Source: an uncultured Gemmiger sp.
GTDB taxonomy: Bacteria > Bacillota > Clostridia > Oscillospirales > Ruminococcaceae
Direction of reading: 5' to 3'
Length of the DNA stretch: 51,544 bases
Assembly (NCBI GenBank): GCA_944386225.1
Contig: CALXAH010000025.1
Coordinates: forward strand, 1-51,544
Shown: positions 1 to 4,899 of the stretch, one piece after another
Position numbering within the stretch: the first letter of the stretch is position 1
How the letters are laid out: each line of letters opens with the position of its first letter
The notes under the pieces: model-generated
Told to the model about the DNA's origin: nothing
Databases searched by the model: none
Seen by the model: only the letters and a program-made list of their open reading frames with translations
Made by a program: the position numbers and the translations under genes

Positions 1-2
1 AA

Positions 3-791
3 TTTTCTGAATATGGGCTAATAAATGTCGGTATTACTACTGGAAACAATGGCTATTTTTCTGTTACAGAAGAAGTCACAAATCATTATCATCTAGAAGA
101 AGCCACGCTCCCACTAATAGGACGAAGTTCTCATGCACATGGAATCTATTTTACCGAAGCTGATTGGAATTTGAATAAAGCAGCAGGTAAACCGGCCCGT
201 TTAGTCAAATTCCCGGATACTCCATATGAAGATTATCCTCAAGGGTATAAAGATTATATCATGGCAGGGGAAGCAAAGAGTGAACATGTAGGATATAAAT
301 GCTCGATTCGTGATAGGTGGTATATTGTTCCTTCTGTTTGGATTCCAGATGCCTTTTTTCTGCGACGAAATAATCTTTATCCCAAGTTTGTTCTTAACCG
401 TTGTGGCGCAGTATCAACAGATACTATGCACAGGATGAAATTCAAGAATGGTGTAGACCCTGAAAATGTCCTTCTTGCATATTACAACAGCGTTTCTTTT
501 GCATTTACAGAAATCTGTGGTAGAAGTTATGGTGGAGGGGTTCTTGAAATTCTTCCGGGAGAAATGGGTAATATCTTGCTTCCGAAAATCCAACGCATTA
601 ACCCTGTGTTTAGAAGTGAACTTCTGCAAGAAGTAGATCACGTCGTCCGAAATGATGACGACATTGAAAAAGCACTAGATTTGGTGGATAGAGAAGTCCT
701 TATTAAACTGTTAGGCATTGAACAGGAAATTTGTTCTCAGTGCAGGGTTATTTGGAAAAAGATGCAAAGAAGAAGATTGGGGCGAGGATAA
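3..791 (+). CDS. N6-adenine DNA methyltransferase, C-terminal part (gene cut by window edge)
   Basis: The reading frame is open from base 3 to the stop at 789-791, so the start and the catalytic domain lie left of the window. The visible 262 residues resemble the target-recognition half of Eco57I/TaqI-type class I adenine methyltransferases: a VGITTGNNGYF block near the start, then RDRWYIVPS, a STDTMHRM segment and a SYGGGVLEILPGE block, which recur in this family. The family adds a methyl group to adenine in a specific DNA site and in restriction-modification protects self DNA. The NPPY catalytic motif is not visible, so activity cannot be judged. It is AT-rich like the two genes after it, 75 bases upstream of a putative nuclease gene, which suggests a shared defence operon. 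An ATG at 171 is internal, since homology-like sequence continues before it. Confidence 0.75.
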   Translation, partial: FSEYGLINVGITTGNNGYFSVTEEVTNHYHLEEATLPLIGRSSHAHGIYFTEADWNLNKAAGKPARLVKFPDTPYEDYPQGYKDYIMAGEAKSEHVGYKCSIRDRWYIVPSVWIPDAFFLRRNNLYPKFVLNRCGAVSTDTMHRMKFKNGVDPENVLLAYYNSVSFAFTEICGRSYGGGVLEILPGEMGNILLPKIQRINPVFRSELLQEVDHVVRNDDDIEKALDLVDREVLIKLLGIEQEICSQCRVIWKKMQRRRLGRG

Positions 792-865
792 TCTTATATC
801 ACATAGATTGGTTTTCTCTAATCTGTGGTGAGTTTTATGCAATTATGAACTCTGGTGGTGATAAT

Positions 866-2155
866 ATGCGGCAGGCAGACAGTACAATTCGAGGTTACCT
901 CTACCAATTTAACAAATCAATATACGAAATTTTGCAGTCAAATGATGACGAAGAGATTACGTTGGAAGGCGTAATTGAAGATATTGATATTCAATCTCCC
1001 ACAAGCACGACCACAATACAATGCAAATATCATGAAGATAAAAAGTATCTGATTTCAGGGGTAGCGGCTCCAATCTTAGAGATGTTGTGCCATTATTATG
1101 AATGCCATGCCTTAGGTAAATCGGTATCGTATATTTTATATGCGTACTATGAGGAAAATACAGATAGTGTTACCATGGATGCATTTGCTGATTTTCTTAG
1201 TAATACCAAAGACAAGGATATTCAAATTAAATATTTTCATAGGATATATACTATTCCGGATGATAATATACTTGCCATTGCCATGAAGCCCCAGAAGAAA
1301 AAAGATGAGAAGCAGGCATTGCTTGATTACTACAAAGACCATAAAGAATCTTTAGCTCTCAAAGTATCAATTGAAGATTTTTGGGCGAGATTCAGATATG
1401 AGCCAGCAGAGCAATTTGATGTCTTGAAGGAAAATATCATGTCTCAATTTGAAGCAATAGTAGACATAGATACCGCAAGAACACTTTATTATCCAAACTC
1501 ATTTTCTTTTGTCGCAAACTGTTCTGCCAAATCAGATGTTAGGGATCGTATCGTATCAAAAGCCCAGCTACTTGCCTATCTAAGTACTCAAAAATCTGTG
1601 TTGCTGAATAGATGGACATTAGCGGCAATGGATCAAGAAAAGGTGTTAAAGGATAAGAAAAAATACCTATCTGGATACTTTGCGGGAAATACTGATATTC
1701 GTGCATTTATCTTCTCCGATGAGTTTTTGGAGGCCAATAAGGACAATATTTTACCTTTTCTCATCGAATATTTGAACAAGTATTTCAAAAAGCCGCGTCT
1801 ACATAGACAGCCTATTTTCATCTTTGGAAATAATAATTCAACACTACAGCAATCTGTTTTATTGGGGCTATATCAATATCAGAAGCCTGTTAATTACGGA
1901 ACTATCGGGGAGTGCTTTTCGGAAGATAGTTTTGTAAATAACACCACTTGTCCGCCCAATTTCACATGTAAAATAACTTTGGAAAAGAATATTTCTGCTA
2001 ACTTGCTGGAAAGATGTCAGGTGAATCAACTGTATGTGATAGGCAAGATGGAGGATAGGTTCAATAGTCCGAACTATTTTGTTGAAACGTTGGATGTAAA
2101 AAATGTAAATGCACTTAGATATTTAGTGGGTCTATCGAGGAAATTGGAGGTGTAA
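866..2155 (+). CDS. DUF4297/Cap4-like putative nuclease, anti-phage effector
   Basis: The 429-residue product begins with GYLYQFNKSIYEIL and continues into LEGVIEDIDI and TTIQCKYHE. Acidic residues E34, E38, D39 and the Q52-x-K54 pair form the variant PD-(D/E)xK pattern seen in DUF4297 and Cap4-type double-stranded DNA nucleases. The rest has no domain I can name. The next gene, 5 bases downstream, codes for a HerA ATPase; DUF4297 plus HerA is a known two-gene anti-phage system in which the two proteins form a complex, so this is likely the DNA-cutting partner. ATG 866 was chosen because GGTGG lies just before it; ATG 845 and a far upstream ATG at 731, overlapping the methylase gene, are possible but less good. 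Family assignment is by motif only. Confidence 0.68.
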   Translation: MRQADSTIRGYLYQFNKSIYEILQSNDDEEITLEGVIEDIDIQSPTSTTTIQCKYHEDKKYLISGVAAPILEMLCHYYECHALGKSVSYILYAYYEENTDSVTMDAFADFLSNTKDKDIQIKYFHRIYTIPDDNILAIAMKPQKKKDEKQALLDYYKDHKESLALKVSIEDFWARFRYEPAEQFDVLKENIMSQFEAIVDIDTARTLYYPNSFSFVANCSAKSDVRDRIVSKAQLLAYLSTQKSVLLNRWTLAAMDQEKVLKDKKKYLSGYFAGNTDIRAFIFSDEFLEANKDNILPFLIEYLNKYFKKPRLHRQPIFIFGNNNSTLQQSVLLGLYQYQKPVNYGTIGECFSEDSFVNNTTCPPNFTCKITLEKNISANLLERCQVNQLYVIGKMEDRFNSPNYFVETLDVKNVNALRYLVGLSRKLEV

Positions 2156-2160
2156 AGTGT

Positions 2161-3930
2161 ATGGTGGAAATTGGTAAAGTTGTTACAAGCACACCTGGTA
2201 CTATCCAAGTAATGTTGGACGGTGTTCAAGTGTTTGAAAACAATAAGTCTGCAATACGCATATCACGATATGTTGTGATTGAGGATGGAAATGAGTTGAA
2301 AATACTTGCATCCATTCAAAATATCGCAGCAGTACAATCTGATGCACAAACTATTAGCTATACGCTTTCATGTACACCTATTGGCTGCTACTCTGAAAGC
2401 GAAGACGGCATTGATTTCAGACAAGGTGGCGTAAATTTGCCCTCACCAACAGAGCCTGTATACATACCGGAAGATGAAACCATAAATGCGATATTTAGTA
2501 GCAATGAAAACTTCTCTTTTTATGTGGGGCGATTAACAAATAACAAAACGGTGAACTATTTTGTGGATGGTAATCGTTTCTTTGGTAAGCATATTGCGGT
2601 TGTGGGTTCTACAGGATCTGGTAAGTCTTGTGCAGTGGCTCGCCTGTTGCAAAACATTATGAAAATCAACCAGGGACATAACGAAAATGCGGGCTCACTC
2701 AAAAACTCACATATTATCATTTTTGATATTCATTCAGAATATCAGTCGGCATTTACATTGGATGAGGAAGAAGCATTCAGCTTAAATTGTTTGGATGTGG
2801 AAAAACTCTGTTTACCATACTGGCTAATGAATGCACAAGAGTTGGAATCTCTTTTTATAGAAAGCAATGAAATGAACTCGCATAACCAGATATCCCAATT
2901 CAAAAAAGCTGTTATTCTAAGCAAGGAAAAAAATAATCCTGGAATGGAATATATTACTTATGACACTCCGATATATTTTGATATTTGGGAAGTGTATCGC
3001 TATATTAAAAATAAAAATGCGGAGGTCATCAGTAAAAAAGAAGGAGATCCTCATCTTCCGAAGAGAAAAGATGGAACCCTGATAGAAGATCCAGATACCG
3101 TATATCTGACAGAAGATGTGGAATTTGCAGCAACAAGTCAAGCAGGTGCTACCAAAGCTTCAATTGGACCTTATAATGGCGAATTTGAAAGATTTATTAC
3201 ACGCCTGGAAACGAAACTATCTGATAAACGCTTGAAGTTTATTACAAGGCCTGAAAAGGAAGATAAAACTCCATATACAACCCAAGATTTTGCAGAAATA
3301 CTGAAGCAGTTTCTCGGATATATTGATAAATGTAATGTGACAATCATAGATTTAAGTGCCATTCCGTTTGAAGTGCTTAGCATTGTTATAAGTTTGCTTT
3401 CAAGAGTTATCTTTGATTTTGCATTTCATTACTCAAAGATTAGACATCACGAGGGATTAGTTAATGACATTCCCTTCATGCTTGTATGCGAAGAAGCACA
3501 CAATTATATTCCTAAAAACGGTGGTGCAGAATATGCTGCTTCAAAGCATTCTATAGAAAGAATAGCCAAGGAAGGCCGTAAATATGGATTAAACTTAATG
3601 GTTGTTAGTCAAAGGCCCTCAGAAGTGTCTGAAACTATCTTTTCACAGTGCAATAATTTCTTAGTGCTTAAACTGACTAATGTAAACGATCAAAATTGTA
3701 TCAAGAATCTGCTCCCTGACAACAATGCAACATTGGTTGATGTTCTTCCTACACTCTCTGCCGGAGAATGTTTAGTTGTTGGTGACGCAGTTCCGTTGCC
3801 CGCAGTTGTTAAAATGGACATGCCCAATCCAGTGCCTAATTCTAGCAATGTAAATGTTTATGATGAATGGAATAAAGACTGGATTGATATAGCGTTTGAG
3901 GATGTGATCAGTCGTTGGCGCAAAGAATAA
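2161..3930 (+). CDS. HerA-type ATP-binding protein (DUF87), partner of the putative nuclease
   Basis: This 589-residue protein has an N-terminal beta-rich HAS-barrel-like part (roughly 1-110), then a RecA/FtsK-fold motor domain. Walker A is GSTGSGKS at residues 149-156, a DIHSEY segment follows it, Walker B is LVCEEAH with E445 as likely catalytic glutamate, and a SQRPSEVSE segment follows as in HerA helicases. HerA family proteins form hexamers that move DNA; in bacteria they are often paired with a nuclease or Sir2 protein for phage defence. Its ribosome site GGAGGTG lies inside the end of the previous gene, whose stop is 5 bases upstream, so the two are translationally coupled and probably made in fixed ratio. 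AT-rich base use sets it apart from the chromosome after 4.25 kb. Confidence 0.88.
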   Translation: MVEIGKVVTSTPGTIQVMLDGVQVFENNKSAIRISRYVVIEDGNELKILASIQNIAAVQSDAQTISYTLSCTPIGCYSESEDGIDFRQGGVNLPSPTEPVYIPEDETINAIFSSNENFSFYVGRLTNNKTVNYFVDGNRFFGKHIAVVGSTGSGKSCAVARLLQNIMKINQGHNENAGSLKNSHIIIFDIHSEYQSAFTLDEEEAFSLNCLDVEKLCLPYWLMNAQELESLFIESNEMNSHNQISQFKKAVILSKEKNNPGMEYITYDTPIYFDIWEVYRYIKNKNAEVISKKEGDPHLPKRKDGTLIEDPDTVYLTEDVEFAATSQAGATKASIGPYNGEFERFITRLETKLSDKRLKFITRPEKEDKTPYTTQDFAEILKQFLGYIDKCNVTIIDLSAIPFEVLSIVISLLSRVIFDFAFHYSKIRHHEGLVNDIPFMLVCEEAHNYIPKNGGAEYAASKHSIERIAKEGRKYGLNLMVVSQRPSEVSETIFSQCNNFLVLKLTNVNDQNCIKNLLPDNNATLVDVLPTLSAGECLVVGDAVPLPAVVKMDMPNPVPNSSNVNVYDEWNKDWIDIAFEDVISRWRKE

Positions 3931-4255
3931 TTCCGTGTTCATTCTTTTGACAGTTTCATCTGTATATTAAAAATGTGTGGAGCATCAAAAAGTGAGTGTT
4001 ATAAAAAACGAAAACACTATCTGGAAAAGTGTTTCTGTATATGCTATAATACTCCTAAGCCACCTGATCGTCCCTCTCAAGCAAAACCCCCGATAGGATG
4101 GCCCAGATAGATTTTTGATAGCAAAAGTCCGAATAGACCTTAGGATAAGGATAATCTGCATCAAATAGAACCACGTCAAATCAAATCCTCTATACAAAAA
4201 AGTTTAGAAATGGATTTAACTTGGCGAGTGGGAATAACCCCCGTTCCTATAAGAC
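3931..4255. other. Gene-free AT-rich edge of the defence island
   Basis: No convincing gene is seen on either strand. The stretch stays AT-rich until about 4200 and then becomes GC-rich. It holds a weak hairpin (AAACACT at 4012-4018 with AGTGTTT at 4028-4034) and an extended -10 box, TGCTATAAT at 4042-4050, with no open reading frame placed to use it. It may be the decayed end of the acquired segment. Confidence 0.5.
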
Positions 4256-4316: not shown

Positions 4317-4799
4317 TTAGTCCAGCTTGCCCCGATTGGCTTTGCCGCACAGGGCCGTGATTTCCATGCGCAGCATTACCACTGCCGGCATACCGCGCAT
4401 GATCCGTTCATACGAAGGGGTATCCAGCCCCTCCGGATCGTACTTTTCGCAGATGGCCCGCATGGCGTCCGTCCGCTCCTGCTCATCCTCTACAATATGT
4501 ACCACACCATCCGCCATGCAGCTGGCAAACTCTACGGTAAACTGCATCGGTACCGTGCGACTGTTGCGTACACAGGTAAACTGGGCCCGGTTGTCCCGGC
4601 GCAGGTTGTCCAGCTTCTGCCCGGCGCGGGCGCAGTGGAAATACAGCGCGCCGTTGTACAGAGCATAGGCGATGGGAACGCAGTGCGGGGTTCCGTCCTC
4701 GTTGATGGTGCTCAGAAATCCGTATTCGCTATCCCGCAGTACGGTCATGGCGTCCTCGTCGCTGAGTTTGCGGTCGATGCGCCGCAGCGTGTTGATCAT
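4317..4799 (-). CDS. Pyridoxamine 5'-phosphate oxidase-fold protein (NimA-like)
   Basis: The 160-residue product matches the flavin-binding split-barrel family that includes nitroimidazole-resistance protein NimA. Visible signs are the N-terminal RRIDRKLSDEDAMTVLRDSEYGFLSTI, shown here only in part as YGFLSTINEDGTPHCVPI, then YFHCARAGQKLDNLRR, a typical cofactor-contacting stretch, and VPMQFTVEFASCMADGV. Members bind FMN, F420 or haem and reduce small molecules; the substrate cannot be told from sequence. ATG 4799 was chosen because AAAGGA lies 9 bases before it; a longer frame upstream starts with a Lys-rich stretch and has no ribosome site. A promoter on the same strand lies at 4834-4862. 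It is the first backbone gene next to the AT-rich island and is transcribed towards it. Confidence 0.82.
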   Translation of the reverse strand: MINTLRRIDRKLSDEDAMTVLRDSEYGFLSTINEDGTPHCVPIAYALYNGALYFHCARAGQKLDNLRRDNRAQFTCVRNSRTVPMQFTVEFASCMADGVVHIVEDEQERTDAMRAICEKYDPEGLDTPSYERIMRGMPAVVMLRMEITALCGKANRGKLD

Positions 4800-4833
4800 G
4801 GCTTTTCGTCCTTTCGCTTCATTGTTTGCCATC

Positions 4834-4862
4834 ATTTTAGCACGGGTGCGCCCGGCTTTCAA
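4834..4862 (-). promoter_or_regulatory. Promoter of the oxidase-fold gene
   Basis: Read on the minus strand, TTGAAA (4857-4862) and TAAAAT (4834-4839) are 17 bases apart, a good vegetative sigma-A spacing. The start codon lies 35 bases downstream of the -10 box. Confidence 0.6.
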
Positions 4863-4899
4863 TGCGCAAAAGAAAGCGCCGCCTTTTTTCTTCAAATGA

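Follow-up and report, generated by a model that had tools for sequence, protein, structure and literature searches.

Genes at the start of the window

The window analysed here is a 51,544-nucleotide stretch, contig CALXAH010000025.1 of an uncultured Gemmiger sp. (assembly GCA_944386225.1; contig C25 of host genome G000). Base 1 of the window is base 1 of the contig. Three open reading frames (ORFs) lie at its start on the + strand: the tail of an adenine methyltransferase gene (M), a DUF4297 nuclease gene and a HerA ATPase gene. An initial annotation, made from the letters of the window, had reported these three same-direction genes, and they are confirmed here with gaps of 74 bases (M to DUF4297) and 5 bases (DUF4297 to HerA). 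The genes are read below as the end of a restriction-modification (R-M) operon with an exchangeable slot behind M, for which DUF4297-HerA is one cartridge. The features of the region are:

3-791, + strand: M, Eco57I-type adenine methyltransferase, C-terminal 262 codons, frame open at the contig edge (PF22837 M_Eco57I_C, 2.8e-30; PADLOC MTase_II PDLC03267, 2.9e-85)
866-2155, + strand: DUF4297 (Cap4-like PD-(D/E)xK) nuclease, 429 amino acids (aa), intact (PADLOC PDLC02187, 2.4e-36; profile match to PDB 9c1m_A, 8.6e-68)
980-1027, + strand: DUF4297 catalytic codons D39 (980-982), Q52 (1019-1021) and K54 (1025-1027), placed by conservation and alignment to 8xav
2161-3930, + strand: HerA/FtsK-type DNA translocase ATPase, 589 aa, full length (PF01935, 3.4e-29; PADLOC PDLC02188, 1.3e-164; PDB 9c1m_M, 5e-231 over residues 3-589)
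4226-4237, + strand: right attachment repeat of a genomic island, GAGTGGGAATAA; its second copy, on contig C41, forms the end (3') of a guaA-like gene

The PDLC03267 match of the M tail spans model positions 285-538 of 539, so the N-terminal half of M is missing from the window. The tail is 92% identical to the C-terminal part of a 541-aa M in a related locus (L010). The separate M.Eco57I-kind adenine methyltransferase that characterizes Eco57I-like type IIG R-M is present, and the window holds its C-terminal part only. The DUF4297 ORF starts with an ATG at 866 and has an alternative in-frame ATG at 845.

Identity of the DUF4297-HerA pair

The E-D-QxK nuclease pattern noticed in the initial annotation is real. 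All 8 aligned proteins have D39, Q52 and K54, which correspond to D40, Q53 and K55 of 8xav (by alignment, with the residue offset set by hand). The latter are the residues mutated in the published nuclease mutant (PMC11291478; this and the other papers named below are cited from excerpts). HerA is adjacent and full length, and its match to 9c1m_M covers 3-589 of 589 residues.

Comparison of the middle protein by profile and by structure, as the initial annotation had proposed, gave the PDLC02187 and 9c1m_A matches listed above. The AlphaFold (AF2) model of DUF4297 has a mean confidence (pLDDT) of 73.8, with values below 50 in the catalytic stretch (37-64). Used as a Foldseek query, it returned DUF4297/HerA-DUF entries as its best 19 matches, with low query TM-scores of 0.29-0.46. 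This ranking, from a moderate model, agrees with the sequence match and counts as supporting only.

Both proteins score under the NCBIfam equivalog cut-offs (DUF4297, NF042945, 5.1e-46, 157 bits against 300; HerA, NF042944, 607 bits against 850). These cut-offs are NCBI naming limits and lie outside the published definition of DUF4297-HerA. A Pfam scan gave no family above cut-off for DUF4297. Since both genes match the solved 9c1m complex over their full length despite these scores, the pair is read as a divergent member of the known DUF4297-HerA system. It resembles the anti-phage complex (PMC11291478, PMC12198126; PDB 8xav, 8ziq and 9c1m) in having two adjacent genes of the same families over their full length and in keeping the catalytic D/Q/K. 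It differs in its sub-cut-off scores and in its position behind an R-M methyltransferase. The published system is further characterized by a 12:6 assembly, degradation of double-stranded DNA and protection from phage.

According to the excerpt of PMC11291478, the purified complex degrades double-stranded DNA, circular as well as linear, and is promiscuous. It is toxic, so it would be held back or expressed only on infection, and its infection trigger is said there to await study. No DUF4297 relatives were found on viral contigs (82 stretches matched the pattern, 0 confirmed).

M belongs to a type IIG pair in relatives

A scan of named genome contigs for close DUF4297 relatives gave seven loci, or eight with the window, and HerA follows DUF4297 in all seven. 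One of them (L013) has only 58 bases to its left, which leaves seven loci, the window included, that can be judged for the upstream gene. M lies directly upstream of DUF4297 in five of these (window, L009, L010, L011 and L012). L009, where M is seen as its last 58 residues, is near-identical to L010, so the count among distinct loci is four of six. The remaining two, L008 and L014, hold DUF4297-HerA in intact order without M or R-M beside it, and in L008 both frames are intact. The three-part operon of the initial annotation thus stands as a conserved same-strand cluster; a role of M as the self-marker of HerA is not supported. In L014 (6598-7888), DUF4297-HerA is preceded by a DUF3990 gene with a weak ADP-ribosyltransferase match and a helix-turn-helix (HTH) gene.

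In all three loci with enough left flank (L010, L011 and L012), M (~541 aa) follows a 997-1013 aa gene, R, which matches PADLOC REase_MTase_IIG (PDLC03604) at 2.3e-258 to 2.1e-266. In L010, R combines an Eco57I methylase part with one that is HSDR_N-like. A bifunctional R of ~1000 aa beside M is accordingly found in 3/3 relatives with enough flank; the host stretch left of M is unassembled. Judged by family and gene order, M in L010-L012 makes up an Eco57I-like type IIG R-M pair together with R. Eco57I itself is described in the excerpt of PMC12602166 as a bifunctional enzyme with a separate methyltransferase, and the three relatives agree with it in having a separate M next to an R that unites nuclease and adenine methylase parts. 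The initial annotation had raised the questions of whether M is complete and what precedes it: M is cut by the contig edge, and in relatives with flank it is preceded by R. The separate R-M pair further left, which the initial annotation had named as counting against its own idea, is what L010, L011 and L012 contain.

The recent histories of M and DUF4297-HerA were compared between the window and L010 using identical third positions of conserved codons. Third-position identity is 193/232 for the M tail, 140/259 for DUF4297 and 250/509 for HerA (Fisher's test: M vs DUF4297, 3.5e-12; M vs HerA, 1.6e-19; DUF4297 vs HerA, 0.22). No such difference exists between DUF4297 and HerA. At the protein level DUF4297 is the more variable of the two (61% identity, HerA 89%). 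Synonymous sites show that M and DUF4297-HerA were reassorted relative to each other. By this measure, M in the window and M in L010 have a recent common origin and the two DUF4297-HerA pairs do not, which speaks against one-to-one coupling.

The slot after M

Genomes were searched with the R profile alone (E ≤1e-80), a search blind to HerA. R was found in 4/391 genomes drawn from the class, 8/396 from the family and 9/394 from the order. The draws overlap (G063 is in all three), and 19 distinct genomes have R. One (G449) is cut inside R, leaving 18 informative. By BLAST, R is 60-100% identical to that of L010 in 12 genomes (fragments only in G201 and G1001), 51.6% in G449, 33-35% in four and 26-29% in two. 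In 17 of the 18 informative loci, a same-strand gene follows within 170 bp of M. The occupants are:

Shedu, three genomes: G207, G357, G979
GmrSD_N + HEPN, three genomes: G201, G1120, G126 (SIR2-HerA further on in G1120)
AAA_13 or PDC-S06, three genomes: G063, G1063 (fragment), G153
DUF4297-HerA, two genomes: G262, G967 (the genome of L010)
GajA-GajB (Gabija), two genomes: G1073, G992
GIY-YIG PDC-S57, one genome: G192
LmuA, one genome: G1052 (internal start 16 bases after M, longest frame overlapping M; no second Lamassu gene identified)
PHP + AAA protein, one genome: G647 (the AAA protein has a Ppl match, 7.3e-16, over its C-terminal part)
337-aa protein without a Pfam or PADLOC match, one genome: G686 (L066:7136-8149)

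The names Gaj and Lmu are taken by us to stand for Gabija and Lamassu. Sixteen of the 17 occupants resemble a defence gene: 12 by PADLOC scan, those of G967 and G979 by BLAST to a scanned relative, and those of G126 and G153 solely by their Pfam families (GmrSD_N and AAA_13). The occupants in L062, L064 and L085 match PADLOC PDC models, and farther along L064 an AAA_13 protein matches PrrC weakly (1.1e-10). The R-M operon thus has a slot behind M whose content is exchangeable, with DUF4297-HerA as one cartridge.

The DUF4297 of G262 is 25% identical to that of the window, so either there were two entries of DUF4297 into the slot or the divergence is very deep. In the same genome, HerA is broken into two overlapping frames. 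G357 has the R-M with Shedu on one contig and a DUF4297-HerA without adjoining R-M on another. At L084 (2696-7283, - strand), GmrSD-like, HEPN, SIR2 and HerA genes stand in a row behind one R-M. In three loci (L062:13706-14800, - strand; L071:5065-6063, + strand; L095:1351-2379, + strand), a gene of some 330-365 aa, with a product start resembling LLYRI(N/D)E, precedes R by 138-161 bases; its L062 copy has no PADLOC match. Viral contigs gave no R relatives (164 stretches matched the pattern, 0 confirmed).

Reading the gene after M in this Eco57I-like R-M family offers a rule for finding effectors, and the 337-aa occupant of L066 is a candidate new effector. A preprint by Payne et al. (10.1101/2024.01.29.577857) reportedly lists guilt-by-embedding candidates, that is, defence genes nested in other defence systems, a pattern shared by the PDC-matching occupants of L062, L064 and L085. 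The literature search found nothing linking Eco57I with Shedu, with preprints outside its scope, so priority is unsettled.

Upstream and plasmid controls

As a control for the upstream side of R, one neighbour was picked in each of 10 loci (nine from the R searches, including L010, plus L011). The picks passed over nearer opposite-strand ORFs of 83-98 aa in L061, L081, L082 and L084. None of the 10 picked neighbours matches an effector family strongly, and eight have no match at all. The other two match WYL models and, weakly, Cas3c (L060, 1.7e-6), and HTH, capH and weak RmrA models (L064).

The plasmid control comprised 10 Eco57I-like pairs with R 33-45% identical. An annotated defence gene lies directly downstream in 0/10 by a plasmid gene table that is incomplete. 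A same-strand gene within 200 bases downstream is present in one (L089) and encodes a 103-aa hypothetical protein. In L093, genes annotated as TOPRIM and UvrD precede R, and in L034 R is broken by an insertion sequence.

For DUF4297 on plasmids, 15 contexts of 19 records were inspected (7 kb flanks for seven, 5 kb for eight); H2 and H6-H8, whose scores repeat H1 and H5, were left out. L025 has a type IIG-like gene 1 kb downstream, and L026 has an annotated methyltransferase and helicase upstream. With R-M-type neighbours in these 2 of 15, R-M is one habitat of DUF4297-HerA and not the rule. An annotated DNA repair exonuclease is found near DUF4297-HerA in eight contexts, all proteobacterial (L026, L029, L030, L031, L098, L099, L101 and L104). 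Its partner is an annotated AAA or YhaN ATPase in six and a large hypothetical protein in two (L030 and L031); families were checked for L026 and L098. L100 has no annotated HerA after DUF4297.

The common head of the operon

A 58-61 aa HTH gene lies upstream of R in L010, L011 and L012, which gives the order HTH-R-M-DUF4297-HerA. Its HTH_17 score is 26.5 bits in L010 and 28.5 bits in L008, against a cut-off of 27. Upstream of the HTH gene is a promoter-like (sigma-70-like) sequence, TTGACA-N17-TATAAT (TACAAT in L010). The palindrome TTCGTTTAAACGAA lies inside the promoter spacer and is exact in L008, L010, L011 and L012. In L008 the HTH gene stands directly before DUF4297, behind the same promoter (HTH-DUF4297-HerA). 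L008 is thus the same operon without R-M, since HTH gene, promoter and palindrome are shared with L010-L012. Repression of this common promoter by the HTH protein, acting at the spacer palindrome, is probable.

The HTH gene also occurs at Shedu loci (L060, L061 and L081) and at a Gabija locus (L082), where the palindrome differs at one or two positions and TTGATT or TTGCTT, a weaker -35 box, replaces TTGACA. L084 has an HTH 61% identical and no clear palindrome. By tblastn, the HTH was not found in L062, L063, L064, L066-L068, L083 and L085-L087 (L095 was left out of this search). The HTH head is therefore not universal. Viral contigs gave no exact match to the operator pattern.

The HTH-R-M gene order and the third, exchangeable effector distinguish these loci from Eco57I-like R-M as excerpted. 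A parallel in layout is the RptR-controlled type I R-M with DarTG2, which in the excerpt of PMC12255303 has a small repressor and a palindromic operator with TAGCTA repeats at its head. Both have a second effector inside the R-M locus and, at the head, a palindrome plus a small gene for a repressor, a putative one here. They differ in R-M type (type IIG against type I), in the palindrome (TTCGTTTAAACGAA against TAGCTA) and in the effector, which here is DUF4297-HerA and changes from relative to relative; the small protein here is HTH_17-like.

Genomic island and the missing left part

The window carries the right end of a genomic island that has integrated where a guaA-like gene ends (3' side). 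The borders of the island are shown by a step in GC content (37% for 1-4225 against 61% for 4240-51544) and by the attachment repeats: GAGTGGGAATAA at 4226-4237 repeats the 3' end of the guaA-like gene at the very edge of contig C41. The name guaA is our presumption from the sequence of the C41 gene. In a same-genus genome (G008) the site is unoccupied, and the guaA-like gene there directly adjoins a relative of the gene at 4317-4895 of the window. Two guaA-like genes are present in the host (C7:106350-107888 and C41:126-1403), and the C41 copy is the integration site.

The left border of the island is the guaA-like gene on C41, where only ~120 bases beyond the border are present. A family search for M did not find its first half on other G000 contigs, and a protein search did not find R elsewhere in G000, giving only a 29% match to another methyltransferase. 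Since the upstream genes of the host are unassembled, the five-gene form of its operon is inferred from relatives. Contig C48 was tried as the missing left part and rejected: it has a 20-base, 95% match to the C41 end, and its ORFs gave nothing usable. A second, different type II methyltransferase gene (L003; C41:12280-13638, a 551-aa frame) is located on the contig left of the island.

Proposed mechanism and alternatives

In the preferred reading (probability roughly 0.7), an island-borne R-M operon, HTH-R-M-DUF4297-HerA, has an exchangeable slot after M, and DUF4297-HerA would form a second line of defence alongside restriction instead of being the restriction arm that belongs to M. The common transcript, the upstream genes of the host and the second-line role are predicted from gene order and relatives. 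R-M systems methylate their own DNA and cleave unmethylated DNA. R (type IIG nuclease plus methylase) and M would act as an ordinary Eco57I-like system of this kind, and DUF4297 with HerA would form the known ATP-driven nuclease complex that destroys double-stranded DNA. The HTH protein would repress the shared promoter via the spacer palindrome, so that both layers are expressed together. Most likely, the operon would give two defence layers under one regulator; a looser coupling, with a shared operon and perhaps sequential action, is possible. DUF4297-HerA and embedded effectors in R-M loci are known, and the evidence supports a variant here with a type IIG R-M and a swappable second effector.

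The loci would offer two handles on the control of DUF4297-HerA. The shared HTH gene and palindromic promoter could restrict expression, which matters because the complex, by the excerpt of PMC11291478, is toxic and has to be restrained, or produced only once infection occurs. The R-M partner, as the second handle, would make ends only on unmethylated DNA.

Several points weigh against the preferred reading. The genes left of M are unassembled in the host genome, and neither the first half of M nor R was found elsewhere in G000. M and DUF4297-HerA differ in recent history, and R-M-type neighbours occur in only 2/15 plasmid DUF4297-HerA contexts. By tblastn, G063, G192, G262 and G992 have a filled slot without the HTH gene, and G1001 (truncated R) has no cargo after M. 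Since defence genes tend to cluster in any case, inferring function from position is less secure.

That R-M and DUF4297-HerA are simply stacked, sharing a promoter and travelling together with no functional contact, has a little less than an even chance. The modules are separable, as in L008, they have reassorted by third positions, and the slot occupants are unrelated in mechanism. On the other side stand the same slot filled in 17/18 informative loci, the 10 upstream neighbours without a strong effector match and the 10 plasmid pairs without an annotated defence gene directly downstream (by the incomplete table). Because slot filling recurs, some benefit of pairing is suggested.

It is rather unlikely that the two act in sequence, with the slot effector preferring, or being triggered by, R-M-made ends, so that cutting of unmethylated DNA would bring in a second nuclease. 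The excerpt of PMC12904381 presents Shedu, Gabija, Lamassu and Ppl as sensors of DNA ends, and these listed sensors occupy 7 of 17 filled slots (Shedu three, Gabija two, LmuA one, PHP + Ppl-like AAA one). The exonuclease beside DUF4297-HerA in 8/15 plasmid contexts points the same way. The other 10 slots hold no sensor listed in that excerpt (GmrSD+HEPN, AAA_13, GIY-YIG, DUF4297-HerA itself and the one without a match), and for that reason end sensing is treated here as no more than a rival reading. The cutting of circular as well as linear DNA by the promiscuous purified complex (PMC11291478, excerpt) also speaks against it. An extended form is doubtful: the repressor-controlled Eco57I-like R-M operon of Clostridia would be a chassis whose slot effector (DUF4297-HerA, Shedu or Gabija) is licensed by R-M ends on unmethylated DNA, so that methylation by M would indirectly steer a non-specific destroyer to foreign DNA. 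If true, such licensing would name a trigger for DUF4297-HerA.

A guard arrangement, in which the R-M proteins keep the effector silent until a phage anti-restriction factor releases it, is improbable. Its precedent is EcoprrI-PrrC, where the type I R-M linked to PrrC silences it and T4 Stp turns it on (PMC2610378, excerpt). The likeness is a second effector inside an R-M locus, with only gene order comparable; the R-M here is type IIG, not type I, and the effector is DUF4297-HerA, varying between relatives. AAA_13 or PDC-S06 proteins in the slot at three loci (one a fragment), the weak PrrC match of the L064 AAA_13 protein, and the toxicity and pending trigger of DUF4297-HerA (PMC11291478, excerpt) would fit such a guard. 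Against it, L008 keeps intact DUF4297 and HerA frames without adjoining R-M, and the modules reassort between alleles.

The proposal of the initial annotation, that M methylates host DNA against DUF4297-HerA as the self-marking part of a new HerA-type R-M, is very improbable and was rejected despite M lying directly upstream in 5/7 judgeable loci: M is preceded by its own type IIG R in 3/3 loci (L010-L012), DUF4297-HerA occurs without M or R-M in L008 and L014, and in related copies of this R-M the slot holds Shedu, Gabija or further effectors.

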